Program-made: the position numbers and the translations under genes | The notes under the pieces: generated by a model | What the model was told of the DNA's origin: nothing | The model's input: the letters and a program-made list of their open reading frames with translations, nothing else | Database searches by the model: none | Assembly: GCF_030542965.1 (NCBI RefSeq) | Contig: NZ_JAUAOA010000029.1 | Location: 1 to 37,102, forward strand | Origin: Azotosporobacter soli | GTDB lineage: Bacteria > Bacillota > Negativicutes > SG130 | Length of the DNA: 37,102 bases | Direction of reading: 5' to 3' | In this document: one piece after another, positions 61-36,126 of the stretch | Layout: every line of letters begins with the position of its first letter | How positions within the stretch are numbered: the stretch's first letter is position 1

Positions 61-918
61 TTACGCAAACTGGCATCGTTTTTCATACGGTGTCAGTTTT
101 GTTTTTAGTTGAATGCGTTCAAAATTATAAAAATAGATATACTCATCGATAACCTCGTTAGCCTCTGCAAATGTTTTGAGATGTATTCTCGAAATGCATT
201 CTGCTTTCAAAATACTAAAAAAGTTTTCAGCTAATGCGTTATCATAACAATTTCCTCGCCTTGACATGGACGGTGTAATACCATACTCTTTAGTTAGGTT
301 AAAATACCCCTGTGAAGTGTATTGAAACCCTTGGTCACTATGGAGTTGCAGCTCTGTAGTGACTTTTTCCTTTTTCATGGCAGTTCGAATTGTTTCAAGA
401 ACTAAATTTACAGTTTGTTCTGTTCCTGTTTTATAAGCAATAATACTGCGATCAAACGCATCGCGTATCATTGATAAATACAGGATTCCTTGGAGTGTAT
501 GGATGTATGAAATGTCGGTAACCCATTTCTGATTCGGCGCAGTTGCTTCAAAATCACGATTGAGTAGATTTTCATATTTATGAAGTTGTTGCTGCATTCT
601 CTTGTATTTTTTACGTCGGCGAATTTGAGATAATAAATTATATTTGCTCATTAAGCGAAGAACGGTTTTCGGATCAATAAATATATTTCTATTCTGTTGA
701 AGCCACAAATGAACCCTTCGATATCCATACGTTCTTTTTGATATTTCTTGGCATACCGCAATTTCTGCTACGATTCGTTCATTGCGATTCGGTTGATTCA
801 TGCGATGAACAAAATCATAGTACCCACTGCGTGATACATCAAAAAAGTCACACATTGCAGAGATAGAATAGCTGTCTTGGTTTTTATAAATTGCCATGTA
901 TTTTACAGATGGCCTCAC
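61..918 (-). CDS. IS3-family transposase OrfB, DDE integrase domain
   Basis: This 285-residue protein has the rve-type catalytic core of IS3 transposases. An HTH_21-like N-terminal part (about 40-100) contains SKRTYGYRRVHLWL. The DDE residues follow in WVTDISYI, LHSDQGFQY and NALAENFFSILK. The C-terminal YNFERIQLKTKLTPYE stretch is typical of the family. The first codon is GTG, overlapping the orfA stop as GTGA, with GGAAGGAA immediately upstream. Expression could be by reinitiation or by frameshifting into an OrfAB fusion, which is usual in IS3; I did not see a clear A6G slip site. The frame is intact. Confidence 0.93.
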   Translation of the reverse strand: MRPSVKYMAIYKNQDSYSISAMCDFFDVSRSGYYDFVHRMNQPNRNERIVAEIAVCQEISKRTYGYRRVHLWLQQNRNIFIDPKTVLRLMSKYNLLSQIRRRKKYKRMQQQLHKYENLLNRDFEATAPNQKWVTDISYIHTLQGILYLSMIRDAFDRSIIAYKTGTEQTVNLVLETIRTAMKKEKVTTELQLHSDQGFQYTSQGYFNLTKEYGITPSMSRRGNCYDNALAENFFSILKAECISRIHLKTFAEANEVIDEYIYFYNFERIQLKTKLTPYEKRCQFA

Positions 919-1229
919 TTCCTTCCAACGATTTGAAGAAAAGAACGTAATAGTTCGTTTTCCATCTTTAAACGCTTGATTTCATTATCTCTTTTATCCT
1001 GTATGGTAACATAGCTTTTAGGCGGTCTGCCTTTTTTCCGTGGAATAATTCCAGATTCAATCATCTTTTGTTTTCGGTTGTGTCTTCGGATTAGTTCTTT
1101 GATTACGTATTTATCCTTAAATCCATAGAACTCGCTAATTTCACGATTCGTTTTGCCTTCTTCTTTCATTTTTAGAACGTCGAGAATAATGTGTTCTCCA
1201 AAATGTTTTATTCCTCTTTGCCCTGACAT
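915..1229 (-). CDS. IS3-family OrfA, helix-turn-helix transposase subunit
   Basis: This 104-residue protein resembles the OrfA subunit that binds IS ends. It has an N-terminal helix-turn-helix (KMKEEGKTNREISEFYGF), a basic linker (RPPKSYVTIQDKRD) and a C-terminal leucine-rich coiled region (EIKRLKMENELLRSFL) that would pair with OrfB. ATG at 1229 is chosen because GGGGGTG lies 5-7 bases upstream. An in-frame ATG at 1247 exists but has no ribosome site. The chosen ribosome site lies inside a long hairpin, described separately. Confidence 0.85.
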   Translation of the reverse strand: MSGQRGIKHFGEHIILDVLKMKEEGKTNREISEFYGFKDKYVIKELIRRHNRKQKMIESGIIPRKKGRPPKSYVTIQDKRDNEIKRLKMENELLRSFLQIVGRK

Positions 1230-1232
1230 ATG

Positions 1233-1275
1233 AACACCCCCAGTCATAGATTAATTATCTACAACTGGGGGTGTT
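1233..1275 (-). promoter_or_regulatory. Hairpin that can sequester the orfA ribosome site
   Basis: AACACCCCCAGT (1233-1244) and ACTGGGGGTGTT (1264-1275) are perfect 12-base complements. On the minus strand the downstream arm contains the GGGGGTG Shine-Dalgarno of orfA. A transcript entering the IS from outside would contain both arms and hide the site. A transcript starting inside the loop would contain only the downstream arm. Confidence 0.75.
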
Positions 1276-15885: not shown

Positions 15886-15915
15886 TTGACGCCACACCTA
15901 ATCTTGTCATATATT
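15886..15915 (+). promoter_or_regulatory. Predicted porin promoter
   Basis: TTGACG (15886-15891) and TATATT (15910-15915) are 18 bases apart. A Fur-like palindrome begins 3 bases past the -10. The leader is about 130 bases. Confidence 0.7.
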
Positions 15916-15918
15916 AAA

Positions 15919-15933
15919 TGAGAACAATTCTCA
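15919..15933. promoter_or_regulatory. Fur-like box at the porin promoter
   Basis: TGAGAACAATTCTCA is an inverted repeat in the 7-1-7 form of Fur-family boxes (TGATAAT-N-ATTATCA); 5 of 7 bases match in each arm. It covers the expected transcription start. Confidence 0.65.
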
Positions 15934-16051
15934 CTGTTCTTTTTTAAATTTTATCATAAGGAGGAAATAAATTTAACTCTACCTGTCTGTTTTTTTTGCA
16001 AGCAGATGCGTTCGACACCGTGGACTATATTATGGCAAAAGGATGGCATAC

Positions 16052-16999
16052 ATGAAAAAAAGTATCGCACTTACATTGCTTGGTTTGACTTTTTCCGCTT
16101 TTCCCATTGCGCAGGCAGCGCCGCTAACACTGAACGGCGACGTATCCGTCAGTTATGAAAAAGATACGGCCGCAGACGCTGCCTCCTCCGGCTCACGTTA
16201 TACGCTGCGCCTTAAAGGCGAAAGCGAACTCGGCTCTGGCTGGTCGCTCTATGGCCGCGTCACTGCGCAATATGCAAACAATCCTTCTTTTGGCGACTAT
16301 AATCTCGCTGCGTACGGCGGCGAACAAAAATCAGTTTTTTCTTTCGATCAATTCGGCTTAATTCACAAGAACGAACAATTCGTCTATAAGATCGGACGCC
16401 AGGATGCGGCGGTCGGCAAGACGGCGCTGCTTTATAGCCGTGCAGACAGCAACATCGGAAAAAGGACGTTCGTCGACGGACTATCGCTTTCAGGTACGAC
16501 AGGAAAAACGGAAATAGCCGCCCTCTTGGCGCAAGAAGACAATGTCGGTGCTGATGATAATCGTGTCTACGCACTGCGCGGCGGTTATAACGCGACTGAC
16601 AAGCTGAACTTTGGCCTCACACTGGCCCGCTATCAGGACAAGGTGAACGAAAGCACCAATCACTGGGCGGTTGACGGCAGCTATACCTTCGGCAAGAGCA
16701 GTCTGACGGCGGAATATACAAAATCGAGCAGCGCGTCGGAGAACAAAGCCTTCGCACTGGTTTTCAACTACAATTTTGATGATAAGACGACACTTTCGCT
16801 TACCAAGTTCCGCGTGGAAAGCAACGGCGACATGGGCAAACAAAGCGACTTCGACAACAACAACAGCGGCATCTACTACGGCGTCGCACATAAATTGAAT
16901 AAAGCCGAGACGCTGGAGCTTGTCTATAAGGATCAAAAATCACTCAATGACGGACAGAAAAACAGCAAATTTGAAGCGACTTTGACGCACTCTTTTTAA
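16052..16999 (+). CDS. Outer-membrane porin-like beta-barrel, probably iron regulated
   Basis: The 315-residue precursor has a signal peptide ending AQA (cut near 22) and then about 290 residues of alternating strands (LTLNGDVSVSYEKD, YTLRLKGESELGSGWSLYGR, LTHSF at the end). FDQFGLIHKNEQFVYKIGRQD matches the first-strand/L3 region of general porins. It ends in Phe. No S-layer-homology domain is present, unlike the major Negativicutes porins. ATG 16052 has AAAGGA 8 bases upstream; ATG 16043 is too close to it. The Fur-like box suggests a role in iron or siderophore uptake, but a TonB box or plug is absent, so it is not a TonB receptor. Confidence 0.85.
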   Translation: MKKSIALTLLGLTFSAFPIAQAAPLTLNGDVSVSYEKDTAADAASSGSRYTLRLKGESELGSGWSLYGRVTAQYANNPSFGDYNLAAYGGEQKSVFSFDQFGLIHKNEQFVYKIGRQDAAVGKTALLYSRADSNIGKRTFVDGLSLSGTTGKTEIAALLAQEDNVGADDNRVYALRGGYNATDKLNFGLTLARYQDKVNESTNHWAVDGSYTFGKSSLTAEYTKSSSASENKAFALVFNYNFDDKTTLSLTKFRVESNGDMGKQSDFDNNNSGIYYGVAHKLNKAETLELVYKDQKSLNDGQKNSKFEATLTHSF

Positions 17000-17102: not shown

Positions 17103-17717
17103 ATGCTCGATCCTTCCGTTTTCTCTTTTGCGAATTGGCTTGCGCTGCAACTCGCCCCGACGCTGCTCGGCAGCAAAAACGGCACACTGCTTTCCTTGCA
17201 AGACATTCCCGGACAGCCCTTGCTCAGCGAGTGGCGACAAAACGGCACCGCATTGTTGGCAAGCGGTGTTATCGCATATTTGCCGCTCAAATCGCTGCCA
17301 GGACGGGAAACTGTTTTGTTTTATCGCCCGGATCGTTTGCAGCGTCTCTTTCGCCAACCGCGCACACGCGAATTTCTTGCGCGCCGCGGTTATCCTGTTC
17401 ACCAGGATCTATCCGCCATGCTGCGTTATCTACAGCAGCGCTTCCAACGTTGCTGTCCGCATGAAATCGGCCTCTTTCTCGGCATTCCGCTCAAAGACGT
17501 GATCGGCTTCATCGAATCCCGCTGCCCGCTCGAAGATTGCGCGACGCCTTGGAAAGTCTTCGGTTGCCAGGAAACGTCACTGCGTCTTTGGCGACGCTTC
17601 ATCTCCGATCAGAACCAAATAGAGCAGTTGTTAAGCTATGGCCATTGTCCAAAATCCATCCTGTGTTCCGACTGTCCCTATCTGCCGCCTGCGCAACGCT
17701 TTGCCAGAACCAGTTAA
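17103..17717 (+). CDS. DUF3793 family protein
   Basis: This 204-residue protein has the DUF3793 pattern: FANWLALQLAPTLLGSKNGTLLSL at the start, LFYRPDRLQ in the middle, then the conserved HEIGLFLGIPLKDVIGFI and CATPWKVFG, and a Cys-rich end (HCPKSILCSDCPY). The function is unknown. In Clostridia and Negativicutes such genes often lie next to iron or flavodoxin genes, which fits here. ATG 17103 has AAAGGAGG 6 bases upstream. It is 23 bases from the next gene and likely co-transcribed with it. Confidence 0.85.
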   Translation: MLDPSVFSFANWLALQLAPTLLGSKNGTLLSLQDIPGQPLLSEWRQNGTALLASGVIAYLPLKSLPGRETVLFYRPDRLQRLFRQPRTREFLARRGYPVHQDLSAMLRYLQQRFQRCCPHEIGLFLGIPLKDVIGFIESRCPLEDCATPWKVFGCQETSLRLWRRFISDQNQIEQLLSYGHCPKSILCSDCPYLPPAQRFARTS

Positions 17718-17740: not shown

Positions 17741-17920
17741 ATGTACAAGGAATTTCGCTGTCTTTGTTGCGGCAAGCTCCTGTTTAAAGGGCAGATTCAC
17801 TGCGTCGAGATCAAATGTCCGCGCTGCCATGCTTTGCAAAAACTTGAAGGCTGCGAAGCGCCCAAGAATCTGTTGCCGATCGCAACTTCTGCTGCCGCTT
17901 TGCATCACTCCGCCAATTGA
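17741..17920 (+). CDS. Com-like small zinc-finger protein
   Basis: The 59-residue protein has FRCLCCGKLLFKGQ followed by VEIKCPRCHALQKL. The spacing of two CxxC pairs and the IKCPRC motif match phage Mu Com, a zinc-finger protein that activates translation of mom by binding its mRNA. No mom-like modification gene is present. ATG 17741 has AAGAGG 10 bases upstream. Its position after DUF3793 suggests a post-transcriptional or metal-responsive role, as inference. Confidence 0.8.
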   Translation: MYKEFRCLCCGKLLFKGQIHCVEIKCPRCHALQKLEGCEAPKNLLPIATSAAALHHSAN

Positions 17921-17928
17921 GAGCACAA

Positions 17929-17991
17929 AAAAAACAGGCAAGACGGATGTAATAGGAACACTTCCGCTTACATCCGTCTTGCCTGTTTTTT
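17929..17991. terminator. Long bidirectional terminator
   Basis: Arms 17929-17952 and 17968-17991 are perfect 24-base complements (core CAGGCAAGACGGATG) around a 15-base loop, with A and T tracts at the outer ends. It separates the DUF3793-Com unit from the convergent HD-GYP gene. Confidence 0.92.
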
Positions 17992-18043: not shown

Positions 18044-18733
18044 TCAAAAATATGCGCTCTTTTTGATACGCTGGATTAAATCTGCGCCCGCCGGTTTTTC
18101 CTCATCGCCCTTTTCGCACACTGTACTTTCCTTAGAGGATTCCAGCAGCAATTTTTCCGGCGCGCATTGCGCTAAAATAAGAAAAGCTTCCGCAACAAGC
18201 GGATCGAATTGTTTGCCGCTTTGCCTGCGAATCTCGCTAAACGCCCACTCCAACGCCAGTGCGTTTCGATACGGACGCGCACTGACCATCGCATCGAACG
18301 AATCGGCCACCGCGATGATGCGCGAACCGAGCGGAATGTCGTGTCCGCTCAGGCGATCCGGGTACCCTTTGCCGTCCCAGCGCTCATGATGATGCCGCAC
18401 CAATGGCGCGAGCGAAGCCAGGGCCGCTGTCTTCGCCAGGATTTCGCCGCCGATCACCGGATGTTGCTTTACGCTCTCCCATTCTTCTAGCGTCAGTTTG
18501 CCGGTTTTCAATAAGACCGCGTCCGGTACGCCGATTTTTCCGATGTCGTGCAGATGTCCGGCCAGATGGATGAGCTTGGTTTCTTCGTCTCCCAACACAA
18601 GCACCTGGGCCAGCGCATCGGCCAGGTGGCCGACGCGTACGGAATGACCGCGCGTATAACTGTTTTTCGCCTCCAGCAGCGCAGTCAGCACTTCGATCCA
18701 GTCATGTGTTTCCTTTACCATTTTCCGCCTCAT
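18044..18733 (-). CDS. HD-GYP domain protein, probable cyclic-di-GMP phosphodiesterase
   Basis: The 229-residue chain is almost only an HD-GYP domain: TRGHSVRVGHLA, GHLHDIGKIGVPD (HD at about 62-63), KQHPVIGGEIL, HHHERWDGKGYPDRLSG (GYP at about 123-125) and IIAVADSFDAM. All metal ligands appear present, so it should cleave cyclic di-GMP or a related dinucleotide. There is no receiver or sensor domain, so control may be transcriptional. ATG 18733 has GGAG 6-7 bases upstream, lying at the end of a possible small upstream gene. A strong promoter with a Fur-like box is about 220 bases upstream. Confidence 0.92.
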   Translation of the reverse strand: MRRKMVKETHDWIEVLTALLEAKNSYTRGHSVRVGHLADALAQVLVLGDEETKLIHLAGHLHDIGKIGVPDAVLLKTGKLTLEEWESVKQHPVIGGEILAKTAALASLAPLVRHHHERWDGKGYPDRLSGHDIPLGSRIIAVADSFDAMVSARPYRNALALEWAFSEIRRQSGKQFDPLVAEAFLILAQCAPEKLLLESSKESTVCEKGDEEKPAGADLIQRIKKSAYF

Positions 18734-18736
18734 TTC

Positions 18737-18838
18737 TTACTCCGCTTCGCTCAAGTTGTCTGCCTTTCCCTTTTCACAGGGCGCTACGCCCTGTCTTTCG
18801 CATTGTTTTGCTGCGCAAGAGCCGCGCTTTATTTTCAT
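18737..18838 (-). CDS. Candidate small ORF upstream of HD-GYP (33 residues)
   Basis: This frame starts at ATG 18838 with AAAGGGAGAG just upstream and stops 3 bases before the HD-GYP start. The peptide has three cysteines (GSCAAKQCERQGVAPCEK) and is basic then acidic. The HD-GYP ribosome site lies in its last codons, which favours coupling. The spacing of its own ribosome site is short, and part of the frame coincides with a hairpin (CAGGGCG-TAG-CGCCCTG), so it may be a structured leader instead. Confidence 0.35.
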   Translation of the reverse strand: MKIKRGSCAAKQCERQGVAPCEKGKADNLSEAE

Positions 18839-18933
18839 TCTCTCCCTTTGCTTTAGCCACGCAGCGCAATGGACAAACGCCGCCCTCTTCGCGCTGCTTG
18901 CGACAAAGATGACGGCGTTCCGGACGCTCTACA

Positions 18934-18948
18934 TGATAATCTTTCTCA
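18934..18948. promoter_or_regulatory. Fur-like box on the HD-GYP side
   Basis: TGATAATCTTTCTCA: one arm matches the 7-1-7 consensus fully, the other at 5 of 7. It starts 3 bases past the minus-strand -10, covering the start. Confidence 0.6.
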
Positions 18949-18951
18949 TTA

Positions 18952-18980
18952 AATATAATTCATTTCTTTTGCCATGTCAA
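18952..18980 (-). promoter_or_regulatory. Predicted promoter towards HD-GYP
   Basis: On the minus strand TTGACA (18975-18980) and TATATT (18952-18957) are 17 bases apart: a consensus -35 and a near-consensus -10. Confidence 0.75.
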
Positions 18981-19050
18981 ACCGTCCTTTGTGCGTCTTT
19001 CCCTTATCAATCTCTTTATTACTGATCTCATCACTTTTTAAATTTAAAGA

Positions 19051-19079
19051 TTGACAGCGTTTCTTTTCTGTCATATCAT
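19051..19079 (+). promoter_or_regulatory. Predicted promoter of the DUF2325 unit
   Basis: TTGACA (19051-19056) and TATCAT (19074-19079) are 17 bases apart. Confidence 0.8.
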
Positions 19080-19088
19080 AAAGACAGT

Positions 19089-19103
19089 TGATAATCATTT
19101 TCA
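19089..19103. promoter_or_regulatory. Strong Fur box at the DUF2325 promoter
   Basis: TGATAATCATTTTCA matches the 7-1-7 Fur consensus TGATAAT-N-ATTATCA at all but one defined position. It lies 9 bases past the -10, at the expected start. Confidence 0.82.
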
Positions 19104-19133
19104 TTTAAATCCGAAAGAGAGGTGCTTTTATCC

Positions 19134-19454
19134 ATGTCGATCATGATCGTCGGCGGCGATTCTCTTGGCGCGATAAACAAAGAGCTTCTTTCTTTAGGCG
19201 CGGAGGAAATTTTGCATGTCGACGGCCGAAAGAGCGGTAAGAACGCACGGCTTTGCATTCCGGAACGCATCGCCTTAGTGCTTGTCTTTACCGATTACGT
19301 CAACCACAATACGGCTAAGCTGGTCAAGCGACTAAGCAAGCTCAACGGTGTTTCCTATCTGTTTGCCAAACGTTCGTGGACTTCTTTGGAAGGGCATGGC
19401 GTACGTCGTTATTTTCCTGTTGCCGCGCCAGAGTCAAAAGGAGGTTCTTTATGA
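19134..19454 (+). CDS. DUF2325 domain protein
   Basis: This 106-residue protein is a single DUF2325 domain: IMIVGGDSLGAINKELLSLG, then LHVDGRK, IALVLVFTDYVNHNTAKLVKR and a Ser-rich end. The fold is probably Rossmann-like; the function is unknown, and no Cys cluster is visible. ATG 19134 has GAGAGG 11 bases upstream; an in-frame GTG at 19122 overlaps that site. The strong Fur box indicates iron repression. The stop overlaps the next ATG (ATGA). Confidence 0.85.
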   Translation: MSIMIVGGDSLGAINKELLSLGAEEILHVDGRKSGKNARLCIPERIALVLVFTDYVNHNTAKLVKRLSKLNGVSYLFAKRSWTSLEGHGVRRYFPVAAPESKGGSL

Positions 19455-19696
19455 GTCTTATGCTTGCAGCCGATTGTCACGGTATCAGCGTCACCGCGTG
19501 CAATGTCACCTGCGCTGCCCAAGTCGAATATTTGTCGCATCAGATCCGAGAGTGTATCCGCCAGGGTTATCAACGGATCATGCTCTTTTTAACCGGTGAG
19601 AACAATCATGCCCCTGGCCTCTATGCCATGCTGCGTGAACTGAAAAGCCAGCTGAACGCCCGCCTGAAGATAGTAGCCACTCGAGAAAGCCTTTGA
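19451..19696 (+). CDS. 81-residue hypothetical protein coupled to DUF2325
   Basis: I do not recognise this protein. It starts MSLMLAADCHGISVTACNVT and has a probable beta-alpha-beta core (YLSHQIRECIRQGYQRIMLFL, then LKSQLNARLKIVAT). It may be a partner of the DUF2325 protein: its ATG overlaps the preceding stop, and GGAGG lies 6 bases upstream. Three cysteines are in the first 37 residues. A terminator follows directly. Confidence 0.75.
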   Translation: MSLMLAADCHGISVTACNVTCAAQVEYLSHQIRECIRQGYQRIMLFLTGENNHAPGLYAMLRELKSQLNARLKIVATRESL

Positions 19697-19820: not shown

Positions 19821-20240
19821 ATGAAAACAATCGCCGTTATTTACTGGAGCGGGACAGGCAACACGCAGAAAATGGCCGAAGAAATCGCAACCGCTGCGCA
19901 GGTCAGCGCGACGCCGGTCGAAATCGCCGATCCGGCAAGCGTTGCCAGTGCGGACGTCATTGCGCTCGGCTGCCCTTCGATGGGCGATGAAGTACTGGAG
20001 GAATCGCTGATGGAACCATTCATCTGCTCGTTGACTCCGCTCATTTCCGGCAAGTCGCTCTTTCTTTTCGGCTCCTACGGCTGGGGCAGCGGCGCTTGGA
20101 TGTCGGCTTGGGAAGAACGCATGCAAGAAGCCGGCGCAAGACTGCTGCGCGAAAGTCTGATCTGCCATGAAACTCCCGATGACGCTGCGCTTAAAGATTG
20201 CCGCCGAGCAGGTGAGGCTCTCTTGGCAGCGCTCGGCTGA
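19821..20240 (+). CDS. Flavodoxin
   Basis: Flavodoxin is an FMN electron carrier that replaces ferredoxin when iron is short. The 139-residue length is that of short-chain flavodoxins. The phosphate-binding loop is WSGTGNTQKMA (about 9-19), the 60s loop is GCPSMGDEVLEE, and the 90s loop is GSYGWGSGAWM. AAGAAGG precedes ATG 19821. No Fur box is seen directly upstream and a terminator lies between it and the DUF2325 pair, so its iron control is inferred from read-through or context only. Confidence 0.93.
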   Translation: MKTIAVIYWSGTGNTQKMAEEIATAAQVSATPVEIADPASVASADVIALGCPSMGDEVLEESLMEPFICSLTPLISGKSLFLFGSYGWGSGAWMSAWEERMQEAGARLLRESLICHETPDDAALKDCRRAGEALLAALG

Positions 20241-34815: not shown

Positions 34816-36126
34816 TTAAGCCAACTCTTCTTCCGCCGTAATCTGCCGCTCAACATGCGCTACACTATGCGGCAGACTCTTAAACGGATTAAATTCCAAG
34901 TCGTTATACGCCGTCATGCCGTGTTCACTGATATCCAGTCCATCCATCTCTTCCTCTTCACTCACCCGTATCCCGACGCTCAGCTGCAGCGCTTTGAAGA
35001 GCAAATACGAAGCCGCAAACCCCCACGCCGAAAGCGCGATAATGCCGATGCTCTGTACGCCGAGCAGATGCCAGCCGCCGCCATAAAAGAGTCCGCCATT
35101 TTCAGCAAAAAGCCCGACCATAAGCGTGCCAAAGGTGCCGCACACACCATGAACCGCAATTGCACCGACCGGGTCGTCCGCCTTCAAATCGTCTAAAAGC
35201 GGCACCGCCTCGACAACCAACACACCCGCGCACGCGCCGATGAGCAGGCTGCTGATCGGTTCCACATACGCGCAGCCTGCCGTGATGGCGACCAGGCCGC
35301 CCAAGGCTCCATTGATCGCCATACTCGGATCCGCCTTACCAAATCTCCGCAGTGTATATAAGCCGGCAAGCGTTCCACCTGCCGCTGCAGCCAGGTTCGT
35401 ATTCAATGCGATACGGGCAATGTTCAAATCCAGACCGGAAAGAGTACTGCCCGGATTGAAGCCAAACCAGCCAAACCAAAGAAGAAACGCTCCTAATGCC
35501 GCCAGCGGCAGATTATGTCCCGGCATGACATTCGCCGAGCCGTCTTTATTGTATTTTCCTGTTCTCGGCCCGAGCACGATCACCGCAGCCAGCGAAGCCC
35601 AGCCGCCTAAGGAATGAATGGCTGCCGAACCCGCAAAGTCGAGCATGCCCATCTTATTAAGCCACCCGCTGGCCCCCCAGATCCAATGCCCCGCAACCGG
35701 ATAAATGAAAGCCGCCACCAGAAAAGAAACGACAATATACGGTGCGAATTTCATCCGCTCCGCGACCGCGCCGGAAATAATTGTCGGCACCGCAATGGCA
35801 AAACCTGCTTGAAAGAGCCAAAACGCATATACCGGAATCTGTAAGCCCAGGTGATCCCACTCGCCTTTTAAGAAAAAGCCGCTTGTTCCGCTAAGACTGT
35901 TCCAATCAACGCCGTACATCAGCGCAAAACCAAGCATGAAATAACCAAGCATCCCCACCGTACAGTCCATGAACACTTTCATAATGATATTCAATGCATT
36001 CTTGCTGCGCACAAAGCCTGCTTCCAGTGCCGCAAAACCACCCTCCATTAAAAATACCAATCCTGCGCATAAGACAACCCATACCGTGTCTAAACCCGCT
36101 GCAATCGAATGAATGCTTGCGTCCAT
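34816..36126 (-). CDS. amt: Ammonium transporter
   Basis: The 436-residue channel has 11 helices. Family motifs seen are LEAGFVRSKNALNIIMKV, GHWIWGASGWLNKMGMLDFAGSAAIH (with the twin-His region), WFGWFGFNPGS, and AIAVHGVCGTFGTL with the second pore His. ATG 36126 has GGAGG 7 bases upstream, while the earlier in-frame TTG codon lies inside the same leader. It lies downstream of glnB in one operon, the usual glnK-amt pairing in reverse order. Confidence 0.96.
   Translation of the reverse strand: MDASIHSIAAGLDTVWVVLCAGLVFLMEGGFAALEAGFVRSKNALNIIMKVFMDCTVGMLGYFMLGFALMYGVDWNSLSGTSGFFLKGEWDHLGLQIPVYAFWLFQAGFAIAVPTIISGAVAERMKFAPYIVVSFLVAAFIYPVAGHWIWGASGWLNKMGMLDFAGSAAIHSLGGWASLAAVIVLGPRTGKYNKDGSANVMPGHNLPLAALGAFLLWFGWFGFNPGSTLSGLDLNIARIALNTNLAAAAGGTLAGLYTLRRFGKADPSMAINGALGGLVAITAGCAYVEPISSLLIGACAGVLVVEAVPLLDDLKADDPVGAIAVHGVCGTFGTLMVGLFAENGGLFYGGGWHLLGVQSIGIIALSAWGFAASYLLFKALQLSVGIRVSEEEEMDGLDISEHGMTAYNDLEFNPFKSLPHSVAHVERQITAEEELA

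Follow-up and report, generated by a model that had tools for sequence, protein, structure and literature searches.

Background

Among the described systems closest to the locus presented here is the Fur regulon predicted for Desulfovibrio by Rodionov in 2004 (PMC545781), which comprises gdp (GGDEF), hdd (HD domain), fld and feoAB. In Yersinia pestis, Fur represses hmsT by acting directly on its promoter (PMC3528687), and in Vibrio cholerae it acts directly on the promoters of cdgD and vieSAB (PMC7641913). On the enzyme side, PmGH (PDB 4mcw) has been characterised as a tri-iron HD-GYP phosphodiesterase of cyclic di-GMP (c-di-GMP) (PMC4159591).

The Desulfovibrio regulon resembles the system described below in that its Fur-type sites lie at genes for a GGDEF protein, an HD-domain protein and a flavodoxin as well as at feoAB. 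However, gdp and hdd are listed there apart from feoAB, the site consensus is a different one, hdd is described there by its HD domain, and the accessible text of that paper does not mention a FeoA fusion (PMC545781). The examples from Y. pestis and V. cholerae have in common with our locus that Fur acts directly on the promoters of c-di-GMP enzymes, but these are GGDEF or EAL proteins and not HD-GYP proteins, and the accessible text of both reports makes no mention of a feo operon (PMC3528687, PMC7641913). The original prediction for this locus had called iron-dependent c-di-GMP turnover unusual. This can be kept only in part, as Fur-controlled c-di-GMP enzymes are already known or predicted in Desulfovibrio, V. 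cholerae and Y. pestis.

The HD-GYP gene and its promoter

The window, i.e. the whole stretch of 37,102 nucleotides that was analysed, carries the following features at and around the gene of interest:

18044-18733, minus strand: gene of a stand-alone HD-GYP phosphodiesterase, 229 aa (Pfam HD_5, E 1.6e-40, residues 15-179)
18737-18838, minus strand: possible leader ORF, 33 aa, read from the sequence
18934-18948, minus strand: Fur-type box that covers the expected HD-GYP start site (2 mismatches; matrix score 19.6, rank 2)
18952-18980, minus strand: HD-GYP promoter TTGACA-17-TATATT (promoter scan and direct reading)
17929-17991, no strand assigned: inverted repeat with A/T ends, probably a two-way terminator (30-nt arms, 93% complementary; fold z-score -9.4)

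Pfam recognises no second domain in the 229-aa protein, in agreement with the original description of an HD-GYP gene without a sensor domain of its own. The motifs HDxGK and HHExxDGxGYP are intact in all 33 HD-GYP proteins that were compared, and the window protein, which is one of them, has both the domain and the motifs of an HD-GYP phosphodiesterase. The nearest solved structures are 5z7c and 4mcw. Since the closest one is a cGAMP phosphodiesterase, c-di-GMP is uncertain as the substrate. The window protein belongs to the same family as PmGH and shares the HD and GYP motifs with it in the alignment. The two differ at the PmGH ligand E185, whose position is occupied by a tyrosine in the window protein and by glutamate in none of the 33 proteins, a difference tied to a two-metal centre (PMC4159591); the glutamate or aspartate that would mark a trinuclear centre of the PmGH type is thus missing from the window protein.

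The metal centre also bears on the further claim that c-di-GMP turnover would depend on iron by transcription alone. We find this unsupported. Catalysis by HD-GYP enzymes depends on a metal centre, and iron might therefore affect the protein directly as well. For the same reason, it is conceivable that the enzyme is produced in low iron and becomes active once iron arrives.

On the minus strand, the promoter consists of TTGACA (18980-18975), a 17-nt spacer and TATATT (18957-18952), followed after three bases by the box at 18948-18934, exactly the arrangement that had been predicted. The promoter scan recovers the same promoter with 11 of 12 positions matching. On the plus strand the box reads TGATAATCTTTCTCA, with two mismatches to the pattern TGATAATNATTATCA, and the HD-GYP gene thus possesses a Fur-type operator at its promoter.

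The resulting leader of approximately 210 nt contains the possible 33-aa ORF, which has a purine-rich stretch upstream and a stop 3 nt ahead of the start codon of the HD-GYP gene; it may encode a small, coupled protein or have arisen by chance. A search of positions 18700-19150 against Rfam gave no match. At the other end, the inverted repeat stands between the HD-GYP gene and the convergent DUF3793-Com genes. As a two-way terminator it would separate the two, and the HD-GYP gene is therefore probably transcribed alone.

Three Fur-type promoters in one cluster

The HD-GYP gene is flanked by genes on the plus strand, with two further promoters carrying Fur-type boxes:

15886-15915, plus strand: promoter TTGACG-18-TATATT before the porin-like gene (direct reading)
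15919-15933, plus strand: third Fur-type box, 3 nt past the porin -10 (3 mismatches; matrix score 19.5, rank 3)
16043-16999, plus strand: porin-like gene, 318 aa (assigned by eye, without a match in Pfam)
17103-17717, plus strand: DUF3793 gene (PF12672, E 5.9e-34)
17741-17920, plus strand: ORF of a Com-type zinc ribbon (PF10122, E 3.3e-6)
19051-19079, plus strand: divergent promoter TTGACA-17-TATCAT (promoter scan and direct reading)
19089-19103, plus strand: Fur-type box of the divergent promoter (1 mismatch; matrix score 26.5, rank 1)
19134-19454, plus strand: DUF2325 gene (PF10087, E 5e-12), near FeoB in relatives
19451-19696, plus strand: 81-aa ORF without a Pfam family (ORF list, Pfam)
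19821-20240, plus strand: flavodoxin gene (PF00258, E 8.7e-14)

The boxes at 19089-19103, which is the stronger one, and at 15919-15933 had been absent from the original prediction. The porin-like protein has homologs at 51-58% in relatives. The 81-aa ORF lies between the DUF2325 and flavodoxin genes; feo clusters of relatives contain an 81-aa STAS-like protein, to which it is putatively akin. A pair of IS3-like transposase genes (assigned by eye) is located at the edge of the window (61-1247, minus strand).

Five sites in the window have at most three mismatches to TGATAATNATTATCA, as compared to 1.13 expected, and none of 100 shuffles reaches five. We also scored the window with a matrix built from the sites upstream of the HD-GYP genes of relatives, with the window itself excluded. 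The ranking is led by 19089 (26.5), 18934 (19.6), 15919 (19.5) and 35979 (16.3), with the next site at 8.3, and a score of 19.6 is reached in none of 12 Markov shuffles. The top three are the promoters of one cluster, namely those of the DUF2325, HD-GYP and porin-DUF3793 genes. The fourth site (35979-35993) lies inside an ORF that by eye resembles an ammonium transporter, and is probably a chance match.

With its two mismatches the HD-GYP box is weaker than that at 19089, which has only one, and the reversed pattern, used as a control, occurs six times in the 3.8 Mb of the genome, so that chance alone would give one such site per about 0.6 Mb. One might therefore suppose that the site at 18934 is weak or fortuitous and that only the divergent DUF2325-flavodoxin promoter is regulated. 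We consider this very improbable, since the box follows a near-perfect promoter at a distance of three bases, and the same layout (TATATT, 3 nt, TGAGAA) recurs at the porin promoter. The combination of a TTGACA-like element, 16-18 nt, a TATAAT-like element and a box within 20 nt is found three times in the window, always in this cluster, and occurs at all in only one of 100 Markov-shuffled windows, by thresholds chosen after the sites were known.

Fur-type sites and paralogs in the genome

In the genome as a whole, 30 places match the box pattern with at most two mismatches, five times the count for the reversed pattern. None of the 17 HD-GYP paralogs has a Fur-type box upstream, in a stretch of up to 300 nt that was shorter for three of them. 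The feoAB genes lie on another contig (feoB on contig C6), behind a gene of the DtxR type. An earlier reading that this feo operon is without a Fur box was withdrawn: it has no box with at most two mismatches, yet the matrix of the relatives' sites shows two sites upstream.

The genome encodes three regulators of the Fur family, and the box might accordingly be read by PerR or Zur, in which case the HD-GYP gene would answer to peroxide or zinc and not to iron. Sites of the Fur-family type also occur near ferritin-like and thiol-peroxidase-like genes identified by eye (L228:6975, L229:6828 and L229:6882); they are perhaps PerR sites and would suit such a reading. We nevertheless judge it improbable, for the same matrix that detects the HD-GYP box picks the flavodoxin, DUF3793 and own feo promoters together with the feo sites of relatives, all of them iron genes, and one of the three regulators is encoded beside genes of a zinc-type ABC transporter and is, by eye, probably Zur. 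Iron-responsive Fur remains the preferred reader of the box.

Taking these observations together, we regard it as likely that the window encodes a stand-alone HD-GYP phosphodiesterase of cyclic dinucleotides that belongs to the organism's own Fur regulon, its promoter being shut by Fur-Fe and derepressed in low iron. The apparent Fur control that had been proposed is well supported at the level of the DNA: the box covers the expected start site, matches the feo sites of relatives and has its layout in common with the porin promoter.

Conservation of the operator in the class

The comparison was made at the level of the class, which by gene content is probably the Negativicutes, as the genome of the window was the only one available from its family and order. 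We searched the 47 genomes with a match to DUF2325 (48 of the 200 when the own genome is counted), and 43 of them gave an HD-GYP match at E <= 1e-48. Together with the window, the 36 neighbourhoods taken amount to 37 loci, in 33 of which the HD-GYP proteins fall into one cluster (median 210 aa). By Pfam on representatives as regards GGDEF, FeoB and FeoA fusions, the 37 loci contain a membrane GGDEF protein in 27 cases, FeoB in 22, FeoA in 12, DUF2325 in 10, the porin in nine and DUF3793 in seven. In relatives, about 20 nt frequently separate the end of the GGDEF gene from the HD-GYP gene behind it. All 27 partner cyclases possess a GGEEF-type motif and 24 of them the RxxD inhibition site.

Of the 33 loci, window included, 23 have a box with at most two mismatches in the 4.5 kb upstream; 40 control palindromes of matched composition reach a mean of 1.2 and a maximum of five of 33 loci. 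At most one mismatch is found in 13 of the 33 (control mean 0.05), and under a stricter rule, which admits only the 300 nt upstream of a gene in the run, the box occurs in 16/33 and the reversed pattern in 0/33. Within 4.5 kb upstream, 10/33 loci have no box with up to two mismatches; at L184 and L206 there is a box, but it falls within the cyclase gene itself. The operator of similar genes is thus conserved among relatives, which had been set as a test of the original prediction.

These counts leave out L186, L197, L207 and L208, where the ORF clustering placed no HD-GYP protein, although the FeoB-anchored survey described below found one beside FeoB in L186, L197 and L208. They include L204, although the tree places it with multi-domain HD-GYP proteins.

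Association with ferrous iron uptake

Since the 47 genomes were chosen by a DUF2325 match, they lean toward this cluster, and a count anchored on FeoB is less biased. FeoB occurs at 113 places in 85 of 110 genomes of the class. We examined 79 of these neighbourhoods, 19 of which had originally been chosen for other reasons; the other 34 places are mostly low-scoring and from small genomes. Among genomes of 3.2 Mb or more, a cut chosen after seeing the genomes, an HD-GYP gene is located on the strand of FeoB within 3.5 kb in 20 of 40 FeoB loci, the cyclase in 22 and both in 18. For the 39 loci of smaller genomes the corresponding numbers are two, two and one.

FeoA is a small protein, the role of which is not settled. 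At L176:7712-8539 and L185:7968-8795, the gene encodes an HD-GYP protein with FeoA (PF04023, E 8e-21 and 2.5e-20, respectively) at its C-terminus and is followed by FeoB; such fusions are found in two of the 200 class genomes. Beyond the class, a Caldimicrobium MAG (L052:857-1612) has, among the matches listed, a gene in which FeoA is fused to GGDEF, with HD-GYP and FeoA behind it. The order FeoA-FeoB-HD-GYP occurs, again among the matches listed, in a Bacillota MAG (L010) and in Desulfosporosinus nitroreducens (L011), where boxes and a DUF2325 gene accompany it, while Ammonifex thiophilus (L004) has FeoB-DUF2325 with HD-GYP further on. A scan of contigs with the HD-GYP protein revealed no near relatives of the window among the matches listed, as HD-GYP is too common.

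The gene order points to a conserved connection of iron uptake with the c-di-GMP signal. A search of the literature, mostly without subscription papers, gave no title or abstract opening that describes HD-GYP proteins in feo operons or FeoA fusions, and we did not find the feo-linked pair of cyclase and phosphodiesterase or the FeoA fusions described there.

Phylogenetic position of the window gene

The accessory genes for DUF2325, flavodoxin and DUF3793 adjoin the HD-GYP gene of the window, and neither feoB nor a membrane cyclase of the partner type was found next to it. A search of the own genome for the cyclase gave 17 GGDEF matches, the best with 43% over the GGDEF domain. Since feoAB is on another contig and the cyclase is not adjacent, the window contains what resembles the accessory portion of a feo cluster from which transporter and cyclase are missing.

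Within the class, the feo-linked HD-GYP genes group in one clade (92/81). In the trees the window gene is not firmly inside this clade, into which the own paralog L088, itself without feo context, falls on a long branch. Together with the lacking adjacency of feoB and cyclase, the unplaced position of the window gene and the place of L088 fit another explanation, namely that the window gene is some other HD-GYP gene that gained a Fur promoter beside the DUF2325 genes, its feo-like setting being a case of convergence. We hold this possible, if on the unlikely side. If the two long rows of the own genome, L087 and L088, are omitted, however, the window gene, the feo genes of the class and four Bacillota rows, three of which have feo genes nearby, come to lie on one side of a branch (80/80), and a tree forced to group the window gene with the feo genes of the class cannot be rejected (p-AU 0.234); the smaller trees omit eight near-copy rows, L176 among them, and most outside rows. 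Moreover, DUF2325, flavodoxin, porin and DUF3793 are all neighbours in the feo clusters of relatives, which argues against convergence.

Proposed mechanism and significance

We infer that iron-loaded Fur would bind to 18934-18948, over the start site, and thereby shut the promoter. When iron falls, Fur would leave the box and the HD-GYP enzyme would be made alongside the products of the divergent DUF2325-flavodoxin genes and of the porin-DUF3793 genes. The enzyme produced in low iron may then degrade c-di-GMP, with a presumed effect on the cell. As HD-GYP genes of the same kind stand in the feoAB cluster of relatives, mostly with a membrane cyclase, the underlying unit is probably an iron-controlled pair of cyclase and phosphodiesterase attached to ferrous iron uptake.

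A more far-reaching model would give FeoB-mediated uptake a local c-di-GMP circuit of its own, with a membrane cyclase and an HD-GYP protein co-produced under Fur and, in some lineages, tethered to the transporter by FeoA; local c-di-GMP would gate or report on the transporter and the metal centre of the HD-GYP protein would read the incoming Fe(II). We think that this model is doubtful.

Many of the cyclases and phosphodiesterases in c-di-GMP networks have no known input. In this case, gene order would supply one, namely iron via Fur. That genes of c-di-GMP enzymes adjoin that of the ferrous iron transporter, in some cases as fusions with FeoA, raises the question of whether FeoA places them at FeoB, and whether c-di-GMP may act on iron uptake.
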